A DNA stretch of 64,000 bases from Daejeonella sp. H1SJ63 (lineage in GTDB: Bacteria > Bacteroidota > Bacteroidia > Sphingobacteriales > Sphingobacteriaceae). Location: positions 1 to 64,000 of the forward strand of contig NZ_JARKMZ010000027.1 of the NCBI RefSeq assembly GCF_029360775.1, given 5' to 3'. The notes beneath the pieces are model-generated. The model searched no databases. It had not been told where the DNA came from and saw only the letters and a list, made by a program, of their open reading frames with translations. Shown here piece after piece: positions 36,469 through 44,228 of the stretch (position 1 is its first letter; each line of letters begins with the position of its first letter). The translations under genes were made by a program, and so were the position numbers.

Positions 36469-36978
36469 ATGCCAGACAAGAAATTACTGATACTTAATCA
36501 GAAGCAAATTCAGCAAAGGATAGATCGTATGGCCTACCAGATATTGGAGGATAATCTTGAGGAAAAGGAGCTGATTGTTGCCGGAATTATTGACAAAGGA
36601 TACATTATTGCAAAACGGCTGAAAAAAGTTCTCGAAACCATCTCTGACATCAAAATTACCCTGATCAAAGTGGAGATCAATAAAAACATCTCCCACCTTG
36701 AAGCCAGTTCGGATATTGATATCAAACAGGTATCCAACAAGGTGGTGATATTGGTTGATGATGTTTTAAACAGCGGCCGAACCCTTGCCTATGGCCTCGG
36801 CGTATTTTTTGATATCCCTCTGAAAAAGCTCCGCACTCTGGTCTTAATCGACCGAAGTCACCGTAATTTCCCTGTATCCCCCGACTTTACCGGTCTGGAA
36901 TTAGCCACCATCCTCAAAGAACATGTTGATGTGGTGATGGATGATCCATCAACGGAAGATGCAGTGTATTTGAGTTAG
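36469..36978 (+). CDS. phosphoribosyltransferase family protein (PyrR-like)
   Basis: 169 aa. Type I PRTase fold with the PRPP-binding signature VVILVDDVLNSGRTLAYGL (about residues 92-110) and the PyrR-like N-terminus LILNQKQIQQRIDRMAYQILEDN. PyrR proteins are uracil phosphoribosyltransferases and, in some bacteria, attenuate pyr operons. No pyr genes are nearby, so a regulatory role is not supported. It is the last core gene before the accessory island. Confidence 0.82.
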   Translation: MPDKKLLILNQKQIQQRIDRMAYQILEDNLEEKELIVAGIIDKGYIIAKRLKKVLETISDIKITLIKVEINKNISHLEASSDIDIKQVSNKVVILVDDVLNSGRTLAYGLGVFFDIPLKKLRTLVLIDRSHRNFPVSPDFTGLELATILKEHVDVVMDDPSTEDAVYLS

Positions 36979-37209
36979 AATTAGGCTAGTGTGTATTAAG
37001 GGGCTGATTAAATACAGTTTTACCCTTTCCTCAGGTTTCAATTCTTTAAAAACACAACCTTCTACTCCAATAGGTGGCAGCCTCAATTCAGATGATAATT
37101 CACAGGCCTTAGCCGATCTATGGCAAGTGCTTTAATAGGGTTTAAGTATCCTAAACAGCAATTTTAACCAGTATCCACGTTTTGCTCTATTATAAGTTAT
37201 GTTCGATTT

Positions 37210-37280
37210 AAACTGGCATATTCGTTTATAAGCGGATGAAGTTGGAAGGTGCAGCAATAAATAAGTTAGTTGCAAGCTTA
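37210..37280 (+). repeat. imperfect direct repeat, unit A
   Basis: About 71 bp containing the core ATATTCGTTTATAAG followed by GTTGGAA and ATAAGTTA. It is repeated 131 bp downstream (37341-37411) with roughly three quarters identity. It lies in the 449-bp gap between the PRTase and the HEPN-like gene. The remainder of the gap (36979-37209 and 37281-37340) shows nothing I can assign. Confidence 0.6.
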
Positions 37281-37340
37281 GGACGACCCAGCATACTAGC
37301 ATCATTGTTATATTATATTTATTCTATTTCCGGTCAAAAT

Positions 37341-37411
37341 AAACGGTTATATTCGTTTATAAGTGGCCGGTGTTGGAAAATTCGGCGATAAGTTATTCAG
37401 TTGCTACTTTA
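37341..37411 (+). repeat. imperfect direct repeat, unit B
   Basis: Second unit (TATATTCGTTTATAAGTGG...GGCGATAAGTTATTCAG). It ends 16 bp before the start codon of the HEPN-like gene. It probably marks the left junction of the accessory segment. Confidence 0.6.
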
Positions 37412-37427
37412 CCGAGACCGCAAAACA

Positions 37428-38360
37428 ATGTCAAACAGTAGAAAAAAAGACATAATTAAATCAAAACCTCTGAATTTTACGTCTGAAGAGGCTGTTAAGA
37501 ATAAAATTCCAATTCAGAATTTTATTTTCAAAACAGATGAAACTCATTTAAAGTGGATAGAAAATACTACAATCAGAATTGCAGAATGGAGACAAATATT
37601 TTTAAGCACATATGCAAGATGGGCTTTGTCTATAAACGGACTAAATCTTGCAAATGAAAAATATACTTCACCTGATTTTTATACTAAAAAACAATTTATT
37701 GTAACTTCTATTAGGCCTTCCAAAACAGATAATAGAATTCCCGAAAGACAGACAATTATTACTTGGGATGGAATAACAGCAGGAAAGCAGCATTTAAAGT
37801 CAGTAAACTATATAAGTGAATTTGGCATAATAGACCTTTATTCAGCTTTAGAGGAATTTGTATTTGACATTTACAAAATCTTTCTAAATAGCAACCCGGA
37901 TAATCTTATAAAAGGAAGCGAGTTTAAAGACTTAAGAAAACTATTTAGAGAAAGAAACAATAGTGAGGATTTAAAAAAACAGTGGGAAAGCGAATGGGAA
38001 AAACGACTAAGTAGTTGGCATAGGAAAAGACTTTATGACGGTTTGTCTAAAGTATTCCTTTCATATTGCAAAGAAGCAAATCTTAAAACACCGAGCCACT
38101 ATAAAGAATCTAGTCCTTCCACTTGGGGTGATAATATTGAATTTGTTGCATTAATTAGAAATCACTTAGTTCACGGTGCGTCAAAGGTTGACAAAGTATT
38201 GGGAGAATTCGCAACTAATCGACCTTGGATACCTAATTCATTTAAAGAAGGCGATGATTTGAACTTGTCATTACGACATTTAGAAAGTATTGAACTCTTT
38301 ACGGCACAAATTTGTGACGCAGTAAATTTTTCACTAATTGAATACACTTCAAAAAAATAA
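37428..38360 (+). CDS. HEPN-domain-like protein (putative ribonuclease), accessory gene
   Basis: 310 aa from ATG 37428; the frame is open to a TTG 27 bp earlier. All-helical in appearance. The stretch IIDLYSALEEFVFDIYKIF resembles the first HEPN helix, and the motif R244-N-H-L-V-H249 in LIRNHLVHGASKVD fits the catalytic R-x4-6-H of HEPN RNases. The end, NLSLRHLESIELFTAQI, matches the last helix of RiboL-PSP/MAE-type HEPN proteins. Such proteins are often toxins or anti-phage effectors. No partner antitoxin is visible next to it. Base composition is clearly more AT-rich than the core genes. Confidence 0.55.
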   Translation: MSNSRKKDIIKSKPLNFTSEEAVKNKIPIQNFIFKTDETHLKWIENTTIRIAEWRQIFLSTYARWALSINGLNLANEKYTSPDFYTKKQFIVTSIRPSKTDNRIPERQTIITWDGITAGKQHLKSVNYISEFGIIDLYSALEEFVFDIYKIFLNSNPDNLIKGSEFKDLRKLFRERNNSEDLKKQWESEWEKRLSSWHRKRLYDGLSKVFLSYCKEANLKTPSHYKESSPSTWGDNIEFVALIRNHLVHGASKVDKVLGEFATNRPWIPNSFKEGDDLNLSLRHLESIELFTAQICDAVNFSLIEYTSKK

Positions 38361-38366
38361 AAGCAG

Positions 38367-38501
38367 CAGCTAACAGGGTATTTGCAATAGTTCGGCTTAA
38401 CGTTGAATGCTCAACATCAGTAATTCTATTTAACTTTGGCGCAAAACTCAGCTGAAGATATACTATTTCCGCACCATCACAAATACCTAATCCGTTAGCT
38501 G
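38367..38501 (+). repeat. attC-like imperfect inverted repeat between accessory genes
   Basis: The left arm CAGCTAACAGGGTATTTG (38367-38384) and right arm CAAATACCTAATCCGTTAGCTG (38480-38501, given here only as its two ends CAAATACC and GTTAGCTG) pair with a small bulge. The region begins 7 bp after a stop codon and ends 7 bp before the next ATG. Terminal AGCTAAC / GTTAGCT resembles, but does not exactly match, the RYYYAAC / GTTRRRY core sites of integron attC. Confidence 0.45.
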
Positions 38502-38508
38502 TTATAAT

Positions 38509-38958
38509 ATGAACGACACTACAAAAAACAAGATCAACAGCAATGAAAGATTTGTTCGGTGGCAGAATATTTTAAGAGAACACGTTAGCTTCTTAAATAA
38601 TTTGCTTTTGACCATCTCCTTTGGAATATTAGGGTTTATATTTTCACTTCTAAACAACAAAAATTTCAATCCAAATTGTTGTCAAAAGATATTTTTCACA
38701 TTTGGCCTTTTAACTTTATTATTTTCGATAATCTTTGGAACAGGTACAATTTTTAGTCGACTTTTTGATTTTCGGACAACACTAAATAAAATTAAAAGTG
38801 AGCTAAATAATAAAAGTGTAACAGACTATAAAACACTAATGAAAGTGTACCAAAAAACGACATGGTGCCTTCTTTATTTACAAATATTGACACTTTTAAT
38901 CTCAACAGTCAGCATTACAATTTCACTAATATCAATTTTCAATGAAAAGCTATTTTAA
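38509..38958 (+). CDS. small multi-pass membrane protein, accessory cassette gene 1
   Basis: 149 aa with three clear hydrophobic segments: about residues 27-47 (FLNNLLLTISFGILGFIFSLL), 61-84 and 117-143. The charged N-terminus is NERFVRWQNILREH. I do not recognise a named family; similar short 3-4 helix proteins are common in accessory regions of Bacteroidetes. Its end overlaps the start of the next gene by 17 bp, so the two are co-translated. AT-rich codon use unlike the core genes. Confidence 0.65.
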   Translation: MNDTTKNKINSNERFVRWQNILREHVSFLNNLLLTISFGILGFIFSLLNNKNFNPNCCQKIFFTFGLLTLLFSIIFGTGTIFSRLFDFRTTLNKIKSELNNKSVTDYKTLMKVYQKTTWCLLYLQILTLLISTVSITISLISIFNEKLF

Positions 38959-39379
38959 TTTAAAAAGGAATTTACTATTTGTACTTTTTATCTTGTTTCA
39001 ATCTTATAGTTTTGCTCAAAGTGGTCTAAACAAAAGCAAAGACGAATTAATTTCTTTTATTAGACGACCTGCTTTTGCTTCGCTATACCCTGAAGTTACA
39101 ATTGACGACAATTCAATTATTGTTTTTTCTAAAGACCTTAAAAAAGGTGTTTTTTATAACTTCAATTCATTTAATAGATGTAATGGAGAAGTAATGTCAG
39201 AGCGACTAAACTCAAATAACTTCGAAAGCACTCTTAGTTTTCTTAAAGCTTACCTAAAATTATTAAATTACGAAAAGGATTATAACACTGAAAACGTTTA
39301 CAGGAATGCAAGTGAAAGAATAACGGCATCTATAGAGAAAAATGACGGATGGTTGAATATAGTTTTTAAAAAATATTAG
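38942..39379 (+). CDS. small exported protein, accessory cassette gene 2
   Basis: 145 aa. N-terminal signal peptide ending QSYSFAQ. The mature part of about 120 residues has no recognised domain; it contains FIRRPAFASLYPEVTIDD and ends DGWLNIVFKKY. Overlaps the upstream membrane-protein gene by 17 bp, and its stop codon directly touches the next ATG. Location probably periplasm. Unknown function; tight coupling implies it works with its two neighbours. Confidence 0.65.
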   Translation: MKSYFNLKRNLLFVLFILFQSYSFAQSGLNKSKDELISFIRRPAFASLYPEVTIDDNSIIVFSKDLKKGVFYNFNSFNRCNGEVMSERLNSNNFESTLSFLKAYLKLLNYEKDYNTENVYRNASERITASIEKNDGWLNIVFKKY

Positions 39380-39952
39380 ATGAAAAAGAAACACCTAATT
39401 ACTTTGTTACTAATTGCAATTAGTGCTACAAACTGCTTTTCCCAAATAACAAATATCAAATCAAAAATTAATGATATATTTTTCAATTTTCCAAAAAGTA
39501 GTGAAAAATTCGATATTAAATTGATCGTAAATAGTTCAGAAAATTTTTATGACTATTGGGAAAGTAAAACTTCAAATGGTAGTATGTCAGTGAGTTTCGA
39601 GCAGAATCCATTAATGTCGTTTTTAGGATCTAAGAATAACATCATGTTAATTTTAAAAGAAAACCATAAATACGACCAGCTAGCATTGACTAGTGAATAT
39701 AGTTCAAATGAGGCTTCCAAATGTCAAAAACAATTGGAGGAAGTACTAAATATTTTCGATCCAATTTCATATAAAACTTTTAAAAGCGTTTCTGAAAATG
39801 AGAATAACGATTTAATTGGACGTGGGTATTCTTTTTATTCTTCTTCAAGTAGCCTTTTAAAAAAGAAAGCGTATTTATCTTTAAGTATCATTGAAAATTA
39901 CAAAGGCAACTATGTATTTGATATTCATTATTTTCCATCAAATCTGTATTAA
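39380..39952 (+). CDS. small exported protein, accessory cassette gene 3
   Basis: 190 aa. Signal peptide MKKKHLITLLLIAISATNCFSQ; the Cys at residue 19 could make it a lipoprotein, but Q after S fits normal Sec cleavage better. The mature region is rich in Ser, Asn and Lys and matches no family I know. It starts on the base after the preceding stop codon. Downstream, CCGCTAACAACAAATTTGTG (39973-39992) looks like the left arm of a second attC-like repeat, whose right arm is missing before the mobile element at 40035. Confidence 0.65.
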   Translation: MKKKHLITLLLIAISATNCFSQITNIKSKINDIFFNFPKSSEKFDIKLIVNSSENFYDYWESKTSNGSMSVSFEQNPLMSFLGSKNNIMLILKENHKYDQLALTSEYSSNEASKCQKQLEEVLNIFDPISYKTFKSVSENENNDLIGRGYSFYSSSSSLLKKKAYLSLSIIENYKGNYVFDIHYFPSNLY

Positions 39953-40034
39953 TTTAAAATGAAAAATTACAACCGCTAACAACAAATTTGTGTAAAAATG
40001 GCTGACGGTGGTTAAAGTCAATTTATCAGTTAAT

Positions 40035-40749
40035 CACTAGTGTCCGGTTAAAATGATTTGCTCACACTGAAAATCTTTCGCTCATGCCGCTGGGCACTTC
40101 CTTTTCCTTCAGCTGGAAAAGGAAGTGCCTTACTTAAGGCATTGTAAATCCACATTTTATCCTATTAACGCACTCCAAGCCGTGCGTAAGGAAGAGAGAT
40201 ATGAACGTTACTACAACACTTCTCCAGATTGCTTGAAGCCTGTGCTATATGATTGTTATCACAAAGGATAAAACGCGCTTTTACTGCCAAATCCCGGAAG
40301 GCCGATCCCTGCATGACTCAATACCTGTAGTAGATGAATGACTGTCACCCGAAGCACGATTCCAACAAACGATCATATTATACAGGAGCTACCGAAGAAC
40401 GTTTCAATCCCCAGTGCCTGCAAGATCAAAAAACAGAGACAGATTCAATCAAAAAGTAATACCGAGCATTAGGCTTTGGGATCATATGCGGTATGCTTTC
40501 ATGAAACAATATCCCCCAAAGACAGCGATCGCTGCTTTTTGATGTGTGGTTGGTTTGTGGCTAAAGGCACCTAGGGATTGAAAGAGGCTTTTGGGTACTT
40601 TTGGCCTTCAAAAGTACCGAGCCCTCCCGGCGATAGAGGGAGGAATGGTTATAGAGGAGGGCTTACATTGAAATCCTAAAATAATATCCATGTTTTAAAG
40701 GCCAAAACAAAGTTTTTTTATTCGTTCTAAATTTAACCGGACACTAGTG
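40035..40749 (+). mobile_element. TIR-bounded structured non-coding element, copy 2 (perfect ends)
   Basis: 715 bp bounded by perfect inverted ends: CACTAGTGTCCGGTTAAA at 40035-40052 and its complement at 40732-40749, extending 3 bp outward on both sides to 21 bp. No transposase is encoded. Inside, near the left end, is a perfect 15-bp stem GGCACTTCCTTTTCC (40093-40107 with 40115-40129, 7-nt loop). Further in is the palindrome CAGCGATCGCTG (40523-40534). It is a MITE-like or structured-RNA-carrying element, the inverse of copy 1 at 33410-34294. I see no clear target-site duplication. Confidence 0.75.
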
Positions 40750-40750
40750 A

Positions 40751-41017
40751 TTCGGGAATGTCACCATGAAAAAAGGCATTTTAACAAATGACCAAACCTC
40801 CTGGGATTGGGTTTCAGAAATTAAAATGAATTTACCGGTAAGAAGAACAATAACTATATGGCTCCTGGATGAAGCAGGTAATAGAACAATAGAATGGCAA
40901 CTAATTAATGCCTGGCCAACAAAAATTACCGGCACCGATCTAAAATCAGATAGAAATGAGATCGCTGTTGAATTGGTAGAGCTTGTTTATGAAAATCTCA
41001 AAATAAGTATGAAATAA
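40751..41017 (+). pseudogene. 5'-truncated phage-tail / contractile-injection tube protein (T4 gp19 family)
   Basis: The surviving frame gives about 88 residues; the first ATG is at 40766. It carries the C-terminal part of the gp19-like tail tube family: MKKGILTNDQTSWDW, then ITIWLLDEAGNR, WQLINAWPTKITGTDLKS and a final VELVELVYENLKI. Complete members are about 140-150 aa, so the N-terminal half is missing. In-frame stops TAG and TGA lie in the terminal repeat of the mobile element immediately upstream, so insertion or deletion at the element end removed the 5' part. No other tail or injection-system genes are present. Confidence 0.6.
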
Positions 41018-41053
41018 GGTTCTGTAAAACCGCCTGCGTCAGTCTGCAACTCT

Positions 41054-41194
41054 GCGTCATCCTGACGAGCCGTACCTGTTTTGAATTCACCAGGATTGTG
41101 ATGGCGAGGAAGGATCTCATCCGAAGTAAGCAGAATTGATCATTGGAGTAATCAAAGCGAACCAATACGAAGATCCCTCCTGCGTCAGGATGAC
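41054..41194. repeat. REP-like intergenic inverted repeat
   Basis: Perfect 12-bp outer arms GTCATCCTGACG (41056-41067) and CGTCAGGATGAC (41183-41194), with a nested AAGGATCT / AGATCC pair. This resembles the dispersed 'GTCATCCTGA...TCAGGATGAC' repeats found between genes in many Bacteroidetes. Confidence 0.6.
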
Positions 41195-41210
41195 ATTAAT
41201 CTACCCCCCT

Positions 41211-41313
41211 CACTCTACCTAAACTTCCTTCAGATTCAGATAAAAAGCCAAACGCTCGGCCGTCAGGTCAGAAGCACTGACTACATATTTAGCCTTAGAA
41301 TAAAACGGTTCAC
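41211..41313 (-). pseudogene. duplicated 3' end of aroK
   Basis: 103 bp nearly identical (6 differences counted) to the end of the intact aroK gene at 42531-42633, same orientation, offset by exactly 1320 bp. Its translation keeps FYSKAKYVVSA and LTAERLAFYLNLKEV and the stop codon at 41219. The remaining aroK sequence is absent. The rest of the gap to the SDR gene (41314-41563) holds a GC-rich stretch (CCGGCGCGAGCCCGG) and a doubtful minus-strand frame. Confidence 0.75.
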
Positions 41314-41563
41314 CCAACCGGCGCGAGCCCGGCTAGCCTTTCTGGTTGAATCTTTCAAGCCTTTGCTTTAAAGATAAAGGCCTGCCATTTTCGGTTTCTA
41401 TTAGGTAATTATACTTAGAATAAGGATATTTAATAAAGGATGATAAAAGAGCCGCAAGACTACAAAATTTAGCGGGCTTGCGGCAGTTTATCATCGTTGT
41501 AGACGAGTTACCGGTCATTGTATTAAGACAACATATTAACATAAACAATTTAAAATCAATAAA

Positions 41564-42319
41564 ATGGAAAATCAATTTAAAGAAAAAGTAGCTATTGTGA
41601 CAGGTGGCTCATTTGGAATAGGCAGAGCTACTGCCATTGCCTTTGCAAAAAAAGGCGCAAAAGTTGCCGTTGTGGACTGGGTAGAAGACAGCGAAACGCT
41701 CAATGTTATCAAGTCACTTGGAGGGGAAACAATATTTATTAAATGCGATATATCAAAACCAGAAGATGTAAAAGCAATGGTAGAAAAAACCATTGCAACG
41801 TTCGGTCGTTTAGACTATGCTTTTAACAATGCAGGAATTGAAGGTAATAATGGGTCTGTACATGAGTGTACAGAGGAAAATTGGGATAAAACAATTGGTA
41901 TTAACCTAAAAGGCATATGGCTCTCCATGAAATATGAAATCCCTGAAATGCTTAAGCAAGGTAAAGGAGTAATTGTTAACTGCGCTTCTATTGCCGGACT
42001 GGTGGGTTTTCCGGGTTTACCTGCTTATGTAGCATCAAAACACGGTGTTATAGGATTGACGAAGACATCTGCATTAGAATGTGCTAAACTTGGAATTAGA
42101 GTGAATGCTGTTTGTCCAGGAGCAATTAAAACCCCAATGATTGACAGGATTACTGGTAACAAAAAAGAGGTGGAAGAACAGTTTGCCGCTATGGAACCCA
42201 TTGGACGATTGGGCCAACCGGAAGAAGTTGCTAATTCTGTGCTGTGGCTTTGCTCTGATGATGCATCATTTATAACCGGACATGCAATGGCAGTTGATGG
42301 CGGCTGGGTTGCACAATAA
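41564..42319 (+). CDS. SDR family NAD(P)-dependent oxidoreductase
   Basis: 251 aa, classical short-chain dehydrogenase. Cofactor motif TGGSFGIGRA (residues about 12-21), NNAG, the catalytic Ser in NCASIAG, Tyr/Lys in YVASK, and the C-terminal DDASFITGHAMAVDGGW. Close to glucose-1-dehydrogenase / 3-oxoacyl-reductase-like SDRs; substrate unknown. It lies between the two copies of the aroK 3' end, so it was probably gained with that duplication. Confidence 0.88.
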   Translation: MENQFKEKVAIVTGGSFGIGRATAIAFAKKGAKVAVVDWVEDSETLNVIKSLGGETIFIKCDISKPEDVKAMVEKTIATFGRLDYAFNNAGIEGNNGSVHECTEENWDKTIGINLKGIWLSMKYEIPEMLKQGKGVIVNCASIAGLVGFPGLPAYVASKHGVIGLTKTSALECAKLGIRVNAVCPGAIKTPMIDRITGNKKEVEEQFAAMEPIGRLGQPEEVANSVLWLCSDDASFITGHAMAVDGGWVAQ

Positions 42320-42395
42320 TAGTGTGATTTTAATGGTTAATTTTAATATACGATGGAGTGTACTGCCGGAATATGCGGAATCAAAAAGCTTTTAG

Positions 42396-42518
42396 AAATT
42401 AATAAAAGCTTTTACAGCAGAGGCTAACAAACATGATATTAATGGCAATGTACACCCACCTGTTGCTGACAATACCAACAGGGGCATGAGATTAGGAAGG
42501 TTGTTACAAAAAACTTAG
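42396..42518 (+). pseudogene. possible decayed coding remnant
   Basis: A frame without start codon reads ...AFTAEANKHDINGNVH and ends GMRLGRLLQKT before a TAG. A second frame just upstream (MECTAGICGIKKLLEINK) stops shortly before. The composition looks protein-like, which suggests a frameshifted leftover behind the SDR gene. I cannot name the family. Confidence 0.25.
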
Positions 42519-42538
42519 GGTTCTAAGCCTCACTCAAC

Positions 42539-43048
42539 CTACACTTCCTTCAGATTCAGATAAAAAGCCAAACGCTCAGCCGTCAGATCAGCAGCACTGA
42601 CTACATATTTAGCCTTAGAATAAAACTGTTCACGATCTTTCAGCTTTTCAGCAATAAAATTAACCAGATCCTCATTTTTAAGATGTTTGATGAGTGGCCT
42701 GTCGGCTGTGGAGTGTTCCAAACGACTGGCAAGGCCTCTCGGACTCATAGAAAGATAAGCCACAGTCCCATTCTCATTCATCCAATCCATATTATCTGAA
42801 AAACACGGAGCTCCTCCGCCTGTGGCAATAATTACATTTTCAGGATAGTCGGTTTTTTGCAGAACCTCTCTTTCAAGATCCCTGAACTGCTGCTCTCCAT
42901 GAGCCGCAAAATAATCCACAATACTCATTCCTGCCCTTGATTCTATTAACTTATCCAGGTCAATAAAATCATACTTCAGATAGTTTGCAAGCTTTTTCCC
43001 AATGGTAGTTTTGCCGCTACCCATAAACCCAACCAGAAATACTTTCAT
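42539..43048 (-). CDS. aroK: shikimate kinase
   Basis: 169 aa. P-loop GFMGSGKTTIGKKL (residues about 6-19), DLDKLIE (shikimate/Mg), FRDLEREVL, ATGGGAPC and the lid region STADRPLIKH. Phosphorylates shikimate in aromatic amino acid synthesis. Full length. Third gene of the minus-strand unit after the DUF1599 and BT_3928-type genes (28 bp spacing). Its 3' end is duplicated at 41211-41313. Confidence 0.95.
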   Translation of the reverse strand: MKVFLVGFMGSGKTTIGKKLANYLKYDFIDLDKLIESRAGMSIVDYFAAHGEQQFRDLEREVLQKTDYPENVIIATGGGAPCFSDNMDWMNENGTVAYLSMSPRGLASRLEHSTADRPLIKHLKNEDLVNFIAEKLKDREQFYSKAKYVVSAADLTAERLAFYLNLKEV

Positions 43049-43076
43049 ATTATATTTAAATACCGCTTTTGAATAA

Positions 43077-44228
43077 TCATTTATTAAAATACTCAGATGT
43101 CAGACGCTCATACGATGGCAGATTATTATAATGCCATTTATTAATCACATTCCCTCCCTTAAGCAGCATCAAACCCGGATTAGATCGTACCATACTTTTC
43201 AATGGAATGGCATCTGCAAAAAATACTTCCATTACCAGTTTATTCTTTTTGCTGAACAGCTCAGCATCCTGAACTGAATTTGAAGTCAGAAAAACGGTAC
43301 GGATATTGAAATTCTCAGCAGCATTGATGGCCAGTGCATTCAAATCACCAATAGCCTGCTGATCTGCATTTGAAAGATCGTAAGCCACGATAACCAGATT
43401 GTAAAATGGGTTTTCAAGCAGTTCGGCATTATAATCTGTCCCCTGACTGTCTGTGATCTTCAGATCTTTGATCTTCAGGTCAAAACCTTTTTTAATCAGT
43501 TTAGACTCGGGCTCTCCAACGATTTCCCAGTTCTTATCTTTCCATATTTCAGTTTTCAGATACTCCTTGTCGGTCATCTTTTTGGTTTCGGCACTCTGTT
43601 TATTCTTCAGGGTATAAGTTATTTCGTACTCATCCTGAGGTGCTCCCGGAGGAACAATCATGAGCTGAGGTATATTATTACCAACTTTATACGGCAGAAA
43701 ATCCAGAACCGGAAGAAAATTAGTGGTGTATAAGCCAAAGCCCAGGGAAGCTAAAACTACCAGCACTGCGACCAGCTTTTGAGCAGATTCTTTCCTGATC
43801 AGGGGATGAATCTGCTCTCTTTTAATGAAAATAAGAAGAATCATGGCAAGCAGGACCAGATCCTTGCTAAACGATTGCCATGGAGTTAAAGGAATGGCAT
43901 CTCCAAAGCATCCGCAGGAGGTAACTACCTTAAAAAATGCAGAGTAGAAAGTCAGAAAGGTAAAGAAAATAATGATGAGCAGCAGTCCCCATGCCACTCT
44001 CGCCGACCATAAACCCAATAAGAGCAATGCTCCTAAAATGATTTCGAGTGTACAAAGTAAAATGGCAATGGCTGTGGCATAATCATGCAGAAAAGCGATG
44101 TGAAATACTTCGAAATACTCCTGCAGTTTATAGCCAAAACCCATCGGATCATTGGCCTTGATGAGTCCTGAAAAAATAAATAACAGCCCTACAATGACTC
44201 TGGTAATTTGCAACCCAATATTCTTCAT
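43077..44228 (-). CDS. BT_3928-type protein: DoxX-like membrane domain plus thioredoxin-fold tail
   Basis: 383 aa. The N-terminal 150 residues have four membrane helices of the DoxX/MauE type (IVGLLFIFSGLIKANDPMGFGYKLQEYF). After a second hydrophobic segment near residues 150-172, a periplasmic region ends in a thioredoxin-like fold (FYNLVIVAYDLSNAD..., NIRTVFLTSNS) that lacks a CxxC pair. Widespread in Bacteroidetes next to DUF1599 and folP-type genes. Exact role unknown; possibly redox or quinone related. Confidence 0.85.
   Translation of the reverse strand: MKNIGLQITRVIVGLLFIFSGLIKANDPMGFGYKLQEYFEVFHIAFLHDYATAIAILLCTLEIILGALLLLGLWSARVAWGLLLIIIFFTFLTFYSAFFKVVTSCGCFGDAIPLTPWQSFSKDLVLLAMILLIFIKREQIHPLIRKESAQKLVAVLVVLASLGFGLYTTNFLPVLDFLPYKVGNNIPQLMIVPPGAPQDEYEITYTLKNKQSAETKKMTDKEYLKTEIWKDKNWEIVGEPESKLIKKGFDLKIKDLKITDSQGTDYNAELLENPFYNLVIVAYDLSNADQQAIGDLNALAINAAENFNIRTVFLTSNSVQDAELFSKKNKLVMEVFFADAIPLKSMVRSNPGLMLLKGGNVINKWHYNNLPSYERLTSEYFNK

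Follow-up and report, generated by a model that had tools for sequence, protein, structure and literature searches.

Why does the end of a housekeeping gene stand twice on the same contig, with another gene between its two copies? In the stretch of DNA analysed here (64,000 nucleotides of a contig of Daejeonella sp. H1SJ63, henceforth the window), the complete shikimate kinase gene aroK occupies positions 42539-43048 of the minus strand, as an open reading frame (ORF) with a Pfam match to SKI at 7e-43. Its end, together with the 11 bp that follow the stop, forms one copy of a direct repeat (42528-42633, minus strand), while the other copy, at 41208-41313 on the same strand, is a displaced aroK end with a stop of its own. 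The original prediction had noticed this duplication, and comparison of the copies bears it out: same orientation, exactly 1320 bp from start to start, 94% identity and the stop codon present in both, over a length of 106 bp and not 103. With six differences in 106 positions, and no other ungapped match above 60/106 on either strand of the window, the likeness is far beyond chance. Its borders are abrupt, divergence setting in immediately after the 11 bp beyond the stop and, at the other end, after 41313 and 42633. Across the junction at 41312-41318 the eye also picks out ACCCAAC, a candidate attC-type core.

Leaving aside the junction codon, five codons differ between the copies, three synonymously and two not (Q/P and A/S); most amino acids had been said to be unchanged, which is correct, though only five codons are compared. 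The identity of aroK to its nearest named relatives (Daejeonella; Bacteroidota, Sphingobacteriaceae) is 77-78%, and the two copies are nearer to each other than either is to any relative. This mutual closeness favours a duplication of the gene end within the lineage itself, later split by DNA carrying a hairpin and an SDR family oxidoreductase gene, the distal tail being a dead copy: an account that needs no foreign donor, and that we regard as rather doubtful. A dead copy is expected to be more decayed, yet its stop is kept and three of the five codon changes are synonymous. Besides, the distal copy is no less often in agreement with relatives than the live one: of the six differing sites, three show it sharing the base of 6, 7 and 5 of the 12 nearest relatives, against 2, 5 and 0 for the proximal copy (small counts, from few sites in related sequences aligned and read by eye), and at a fourth site neither copy agrees with them. 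The displaced copy is therefore not like a decaying remnant; no more decayed than the live copy, it would suit, on this thin evidence, an original end that has been pushed aside.

To all appearances the repeat is unique to this genome. A whole-genome search gave a single aroK match in each of the 17 congeners where the gene was found, and two here; the remaining two of the 19 other congeneric genomes (68% and 87% complete) gave no match. No second tail was seen at 48 aroK loci within the sequence examined around each of them (at least two genomes are represented twice, tail positions outside the genus are approximate, and a 21-bp piece on the opposite strand at locus L023 was discounted). In all 17 congeneric loci the convergent neighbour of aroK is a phosphoribosyltransferase (PRTase) gene, here an ORF at 36469-36978 on the plus strand, named by eye. 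The ends of the aroK and PRTase matches lie 5-2242 bp apart in these loci; in the window the two genes are separated by 5560 bp. At seven of the loci (L060, L062-L064, L066, L072 and L074) the gap holds DNA, ORFs included, that differs between congeners. A gap so variable, with no second tails in relatives, points to a permissive convergent junction and gives no hint that the place serves repeatedly for attachment. The original prediction had named a lack of islands at this place in relatives as evidence against it, and this is half the case: in several relatives DNA of other kinds separates aroK from the PRTase gene, but none has the aroK duplication.

The hairpin in the insert and its counterparts

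Reading from the distal copy, the insert begins with a stretch (41314-41386) that has no match at this place in 301 genomes of the family at E 1e-5. There follows, on the plus strand, a left flank (41387-41421) shared with other copies of the site described next, since matches on contig C35 of this genome and at two places in a congener, G015, begin here. The site itself is an attI-like unit at 41422-41519 of the plus strand, composed of a palindrome (41422-41503) and a core, GTTACC, at 41507; it is an orphan, in the sense that no recombinase gene adjoins it. As DNA the palindrome folds at -17.5 kcal/mol (z -4.0). The unit scores 91.2 bits with R1, a model of the attI-like hairpin trained on six copies with varying hairpins, of which this genome supplied four and G015 two, a score to be read with the fact that the window's own sequence is among the six. 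A "decayed frame" had been placed between the aroK copies, next to the SDR gene. The SDR gene is there; the frame, an ORF at 41333-41575 on the minus strand, has no Pfam match and passes through the palindrome, and thus shows no sign of being a gene relic. A search of 36900-43100 against Rfam returned one sub-threshold CRISPR-repeat match and nothing else.

R1 finds six places in this genome: the window, C30, C35, C12 and two on C21. The copy on C30 lies between two tyrosine recombinase genes, beside a gene for an IS91-type transposase. At C12 and at both places on C21 an accessory gene follows the site; compared with the candidate defence families of PADLOC, two of these match strongly (PDC-S06, 9e-182; PDC-M48B, 2e-141) and the third weakly. 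In 60 other genomes of the family R1 had no match at E 0.001. Two places, one on C21 (L112, at 447 kb) and one on C55 of G015 (L100), have a similar gene (MAILNGG..) upstream of the hairpin and different genes downstream, as would be expected if one docking site accepted different cargo. A 62-nt repeat was considered as a common right border of the orphan units and dropped, because, of the sequences compared, only L101 and L112 contained it.

A tyrosine recombinase with integron-like surroundings

The link between this hairpin and a recombinase is made on C30. Between 73000 and 79400 of that contig (locus L082), a single strand bears a gene for a 350-residue tyrosine recombinase, the hairpin site, a second recombinase gene with the IS91-type transposase gene, two ORFs and an attC-like site (73115-73251); to judge from this order, it looks as if an IS91-type element had inserted itself behind attI, ahead of the first cassette. 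Counting shorter and remoter proteins too, the 350-residue one has relatives in 63 of 201 genomes of the family at E 1e-50. Among 30 recombinase loci, 17 have an R1 match at E 1, always near the 3' end of the recombinase gene. Twenty flanks were chosen for reading by eye (those of 19 relatives and of the contig of L122), leaving aside this genome's own copy, three strong loci (L130, L136 and L137) and six weaker ones without an R1 match (L138-L143). They display very different hairpins, then a similar core that ends in AGTT in 19 of them, one of which (L146) deviates, while the remaining flank stops at a contig end. As in integrons, then, an attI-like site adjoins the recombinase gene on C30 and in its relatives.

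Cassettes begin at the base after the G of the AGTT core, and the reverse complement of their first 9-10 bases recurs downstream at 16 of 22 sites, versus 10 of 456 mismatched pairs. In an earlier run with automatically picked cores the figures were 13/21 and 13/483; the cores were reset by hand because some of the automatic picks fell inside the hairpin. This hand-set comparison excludes C35 and G015_C55, which have no GTT core, and L149, L152, L153 and L163, which offer too little sequence; the sites where no inverse copy was found are those of the window, C30, G015_C27, L145, L146 and L162. The stretch that precedes the next cassette start is attC-like and 133-139 nt long in 20 cases from eight loci. 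These 20 sequences, minus one duplicate, were used to build a second model, R2, and the 19 of them (eight loci) have compensatory changes in 15 of 16 predicted pairs. Cassettes are chained, two or more in a row, at 8 of 22 loci, one of which has eight. As for their content, the longest ORF of the first cassette begins 30-81 nt past the core in 10 of 16 cases and later in four, while two have none of 50 aa.

What does the recombinase itself look like? Aligned with IntI4 (2a3v), that of C30 gives two blocks separated by 14 residues, as opposed to 56 in IntI4, and the short spacing is general: the whole stretch measures 59-65 residues in the 29 loci, of 30, that could be scored, versus about 102 in IntI4 by alignment. 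Its score with TIGR02249, the NCBIfam model of integron integrases, is 199.7, below the cut-off of 265, and it falls slightly below that of NF040815. The domain by which integron integrases are set apart, stated to be necessary for activity (PMC9668308), is thus not found in it. To be sure, one survey has the IntI insertion not fully conserved in an "integron-like" subgroup (PMC8138268). In the recombinase of L082 (7885-8937) the N-terminal 75 or so residues (1-75) have no Pfam match.

The comparison with integrons of the IntI kind is therefore one of balance. Shared are the tyrosine recombinase gene beside an attI-like site, the tandem arrays, the inverse copies of cassette start and attC end, and the covarying attC hairpins; even the location of attI downstream of the integrase gene has a precedent, in archaeal integrons (PMC9668308). 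By contrast, the C30 recombinase has no counterpart of the IntI4 insertion, the attI-like site is a hairpin, and orphan copies of that site stand elsewhere, each with its own cargo. Judged from sequence, the architecture of the recombinase loci is that of integrons, and it looks as if the C30 system worked like one yet fell outside the class as the IntI domain delimits it. We consider it likely that the hairpin near aroK is part of a class of integrons, hitherto unrecognised and spread over the phylum Bacteroidota, which would combine a tyrosine recombinase of about 350 residues devoid of the IntI-specific domain, a hairpin attI 3' of its gene, attC sites of some 136 nt, and orphan chromosomal copies of attI that would act as extra docking points, some of them followed by defence-like genes.

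How far does the SDR gene of the insert conform to this scheme? It lies at 41564-42319 on the plus strand (Pfam; NCBIfam NF004818 above cut-off), and its ATG comes 57 nt after the core, inside the range given above for most first cassettes. No attC-like end was found in the intergenic region between it and aroK (42320-42527): over 41500-42640 R2 gives nothing better than a fragment at E 0.21, and no inverse copy of the start, GTTACCGGT, exists downstream. Without an attC-like end the gene is a truncated cassette at most; it may be that, or something else. Its protein has no match among the PADLOC defence families. At E 1e-70, relatives were detected in only 3 of the 19 other congeneric genomes, and the best of them lies elsewhere; G015 has one of 83% identity, not at this place. 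At two loci around congeners' relatives of the gene, no attC- or attI-like site appeared at E 0.1. A search of plasmids with the segment yielded 11 records, with remote SDR matches.

Sites of the R2 type are by no means restricted to this genus. They are present in 61 of 101 genomes of the family at E 1e-4 and, at the stricter E 1e-6, in 104 of 198 genomes of Bacteroidota, which amounts to 63 of 102 genera; three Pedobacter genomes gave no match. As a control outside the phylum, 13 of 14 genomes had none at E 1e-6 and one, of the Chlorobiota, had two. The attC-like matches of that genome (G493, of L024) have E values of 5.5e-10 and 6.5e-9. Close homologues of the recombinase are scarcer, with 19 of 198 genomes at E 1e-100. 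Around the 19 recombinase loci outside this genome, the flanks examined contain attC-like sites in 10 cases, of which nine lie 3' of the gene and one, at L185, lies 5' of it; outside the family, R1 matches 5 of 19 recombinase loci and the core pattern is seen in 12 of 19. As attC-like sites far outnumber close recombinases, many of the sites may be relics or be served by remoter recombinases.

For Bacteroidota, integrons of the IntI type have been recorded (PMC8618304, PMC2426708, PMC9668308, PMC9024848), but the IntegronFinder 2.0 article mentions a single complete one within Bacteroidetes proper, that of Salinibacter (PMC9024848). Among the matches listed in a search of open-licence papers (titles and starts of abstracts, preprints not included) the present system is not described, and three taxon stems had no match in PMC8352920. 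Finders that require the IntI domain would miss the recombinase of such a system. If this recombinase indeed moves these cassettes, integron function would be independent of a domain held to be necessary for it, and a large pool of cassettes may have escaped counting.

The probable arrival of the segment

The aroK repeat itself is an insertion scar of an ordinary type, and the site inside it matters more. Even so, how was it made? The second aroK end was probably left by a single arrival of about 1.3 kb of DNA. As to the manner of that arrival, a one-off, one-sided homologous acquisition from a relative has, in our estimate, an even chance of being the explanation for the segment at the convergent junction of aroK and the PRTase gene. 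The incoming DNA would have come from a close relative with the SDR gene just downstream of its aroK; one of its ends would have paired with the recipient's aroK by homology, while the other would have been joined within the tail of the recipient's gene, near 41313, with no long stretch of homology. The product would be what is seen: a complete aroK that ends in donor sequence, the SDR segment behind it and, last, the old tail of the recipient. The repeat and its absence in relatives' genomes, the abrupt borders, the variable contents of the gap and a displaced tail that matches relatives no worse than the live one are all observed, and all are in favour of this acquisition, as is the scarcity of SDR relatives among the congeners.

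A process of this kind, homology-facilitated illegitimate recombination, has been described (PMC3240628), and it has been put forward, short of proof, to explain series of orphaned 3' gene regions at T6SS and Rhs loci (PMC5361080). The parallel is that new DNA, anchored by homology, displaces an old gene end (PMC5361080, PMC3240628); the difference is that here just 106 bp of a housekeeping gene have been displaced and that the donor, the direction of transfer and the one-sidedness of the homology are what we infer. The borders would fit such recombination; no donor came out of the searches made with aroK or with the SDR gene, or of the 301 genomes of the family. Nor is composition a sign of foreign origin, the G+C content of the segment (39%) being that of the window (40%). 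Besides the missing donor and this composition, three points count against the acquisition: the sites at which the displaced copy looks original are few, the process is described as rare (PMC5361080), and the stretch at 41314-41386 is left unexplained by it.

The presence of a recombinase-linked site inside the insert invites another account. Genomic islands are known at the 3' ends of genes, of the icd or tRNA type, and when phages e14 and 21 integrate at icd, their attP bears a replacement for the gene tail. A tyrosine recombinase could likewise have integrated an element at the 3' end of aroK, with attP carrying the replacement tail and the integrase gene since lost, and the map, with its complete gene, its insert and its displaced tail, is as expected from such an event; a direct repeat of a gene end flanking an insert is, after all, what genomic islands show. 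We nevertheless hold it to be improbable. The seven ORFs of at least 80 aa in the gap, where the original prediction advised looking for an integrase, include no recombinase; the 17 congeners have no repeat of the aroK tail, hence no recurrent use of the place as in islands; and the known site has its core GTTA at 41507, away from the aroK junction. Of the earlier view, the footprint of an insertion survives, the repeat being absent in relatives, and a site-specific island at aroK does not. Integration anchored on a tRNA was rejected, as the window contains none.

Other copies of the site speak in the same direction, for they have no bracketing repeats of a gene end. At the six other orphan loci, and at the recombinase-linked one, the attI-like unit is not enclosed by any direct repeat of at least 30 bp, the repeats found at these seven loci being all to one side of the site. 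The repeat at aroK is thus not a routine product of the integron-like system, and that machinery was probably not its maker. A last variant would make use of a circle of about 1320 bp, composed of the aroK tail, the hairpin and the SDR gene, that entered through a single crossover in the tail. Integron cassettes are excised as circles and such a crossover would produce the borders equally well, but the genome has no second copy of the segment, and a circle that combines an aroK tail with an attI-like site, yet lacks an attC-like end, has the form of no cassette known to us; we rate this the least probable of the accounts. The acquisition from a relative remains our preferred one.

Cassettes between the PRTase gene and aroK

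The hairpin is not the sole trace of the system in the gap. Nearer to the PRTase gene, read by eye on the plus strand, cassette 1 (37265-38493) starts with GTTAGTTGC and has the inverse copy of that start, GCAGCTAAC, at 38366, with one mismatch; its ORF runs from 37401 to 38360. The attC-like site that ends it (38366-38502, plus strand) scores 75.7 bits with R2 (E 8.5e-14) and is outside the training set of that model; cassette 1 has, then, an attC-like end complementary to its own start. Cassette 2 follows (38494-40031, plus strand), with the start GTTAGCTGTT and its inverse copy AACCGCTAAC at 39971, again with one mismatch; the attC-like end of this second cassette is truncated, and R2 does not report the cut site. 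Inside that end sits an element of 721 bp with perfect 21-bp inverted ends (40032-40752, from the repeat search), which has no ORF of at least 80 aa and resembles a non-autonomous transposon. Beyond it comes the C-terminal piece of a gene for a gp19-like tail tube protein (40766-41017, plus strand; PF06841, 7.9e-22), cut at its N-terminus and covering positions 55-134 of 134.

Near the aroK genes of the congeners (17 loci), no attC- or attI-like site was seen at E 0.1. With their attC-like ends and no adjoining recombinase gene, the cassettes at 37265-40031 resemble a CALIN; they differ in that the window has one whole attC-like site, where the default of IntegronFinder 2.0 needs two (PMC9024848), and in that this site belongs to the attC-like family defined here by R2. 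The cassettes are AT-rich: their G+C content is 30%, that of the window 40%. Two leader units stand in tandem at 37190-37430, ahead of cassette 1 and at its start, about 74% alike over 65 bp and 131 bp apart; both end close to AAGTTA and may represent a further type of attI-like site.
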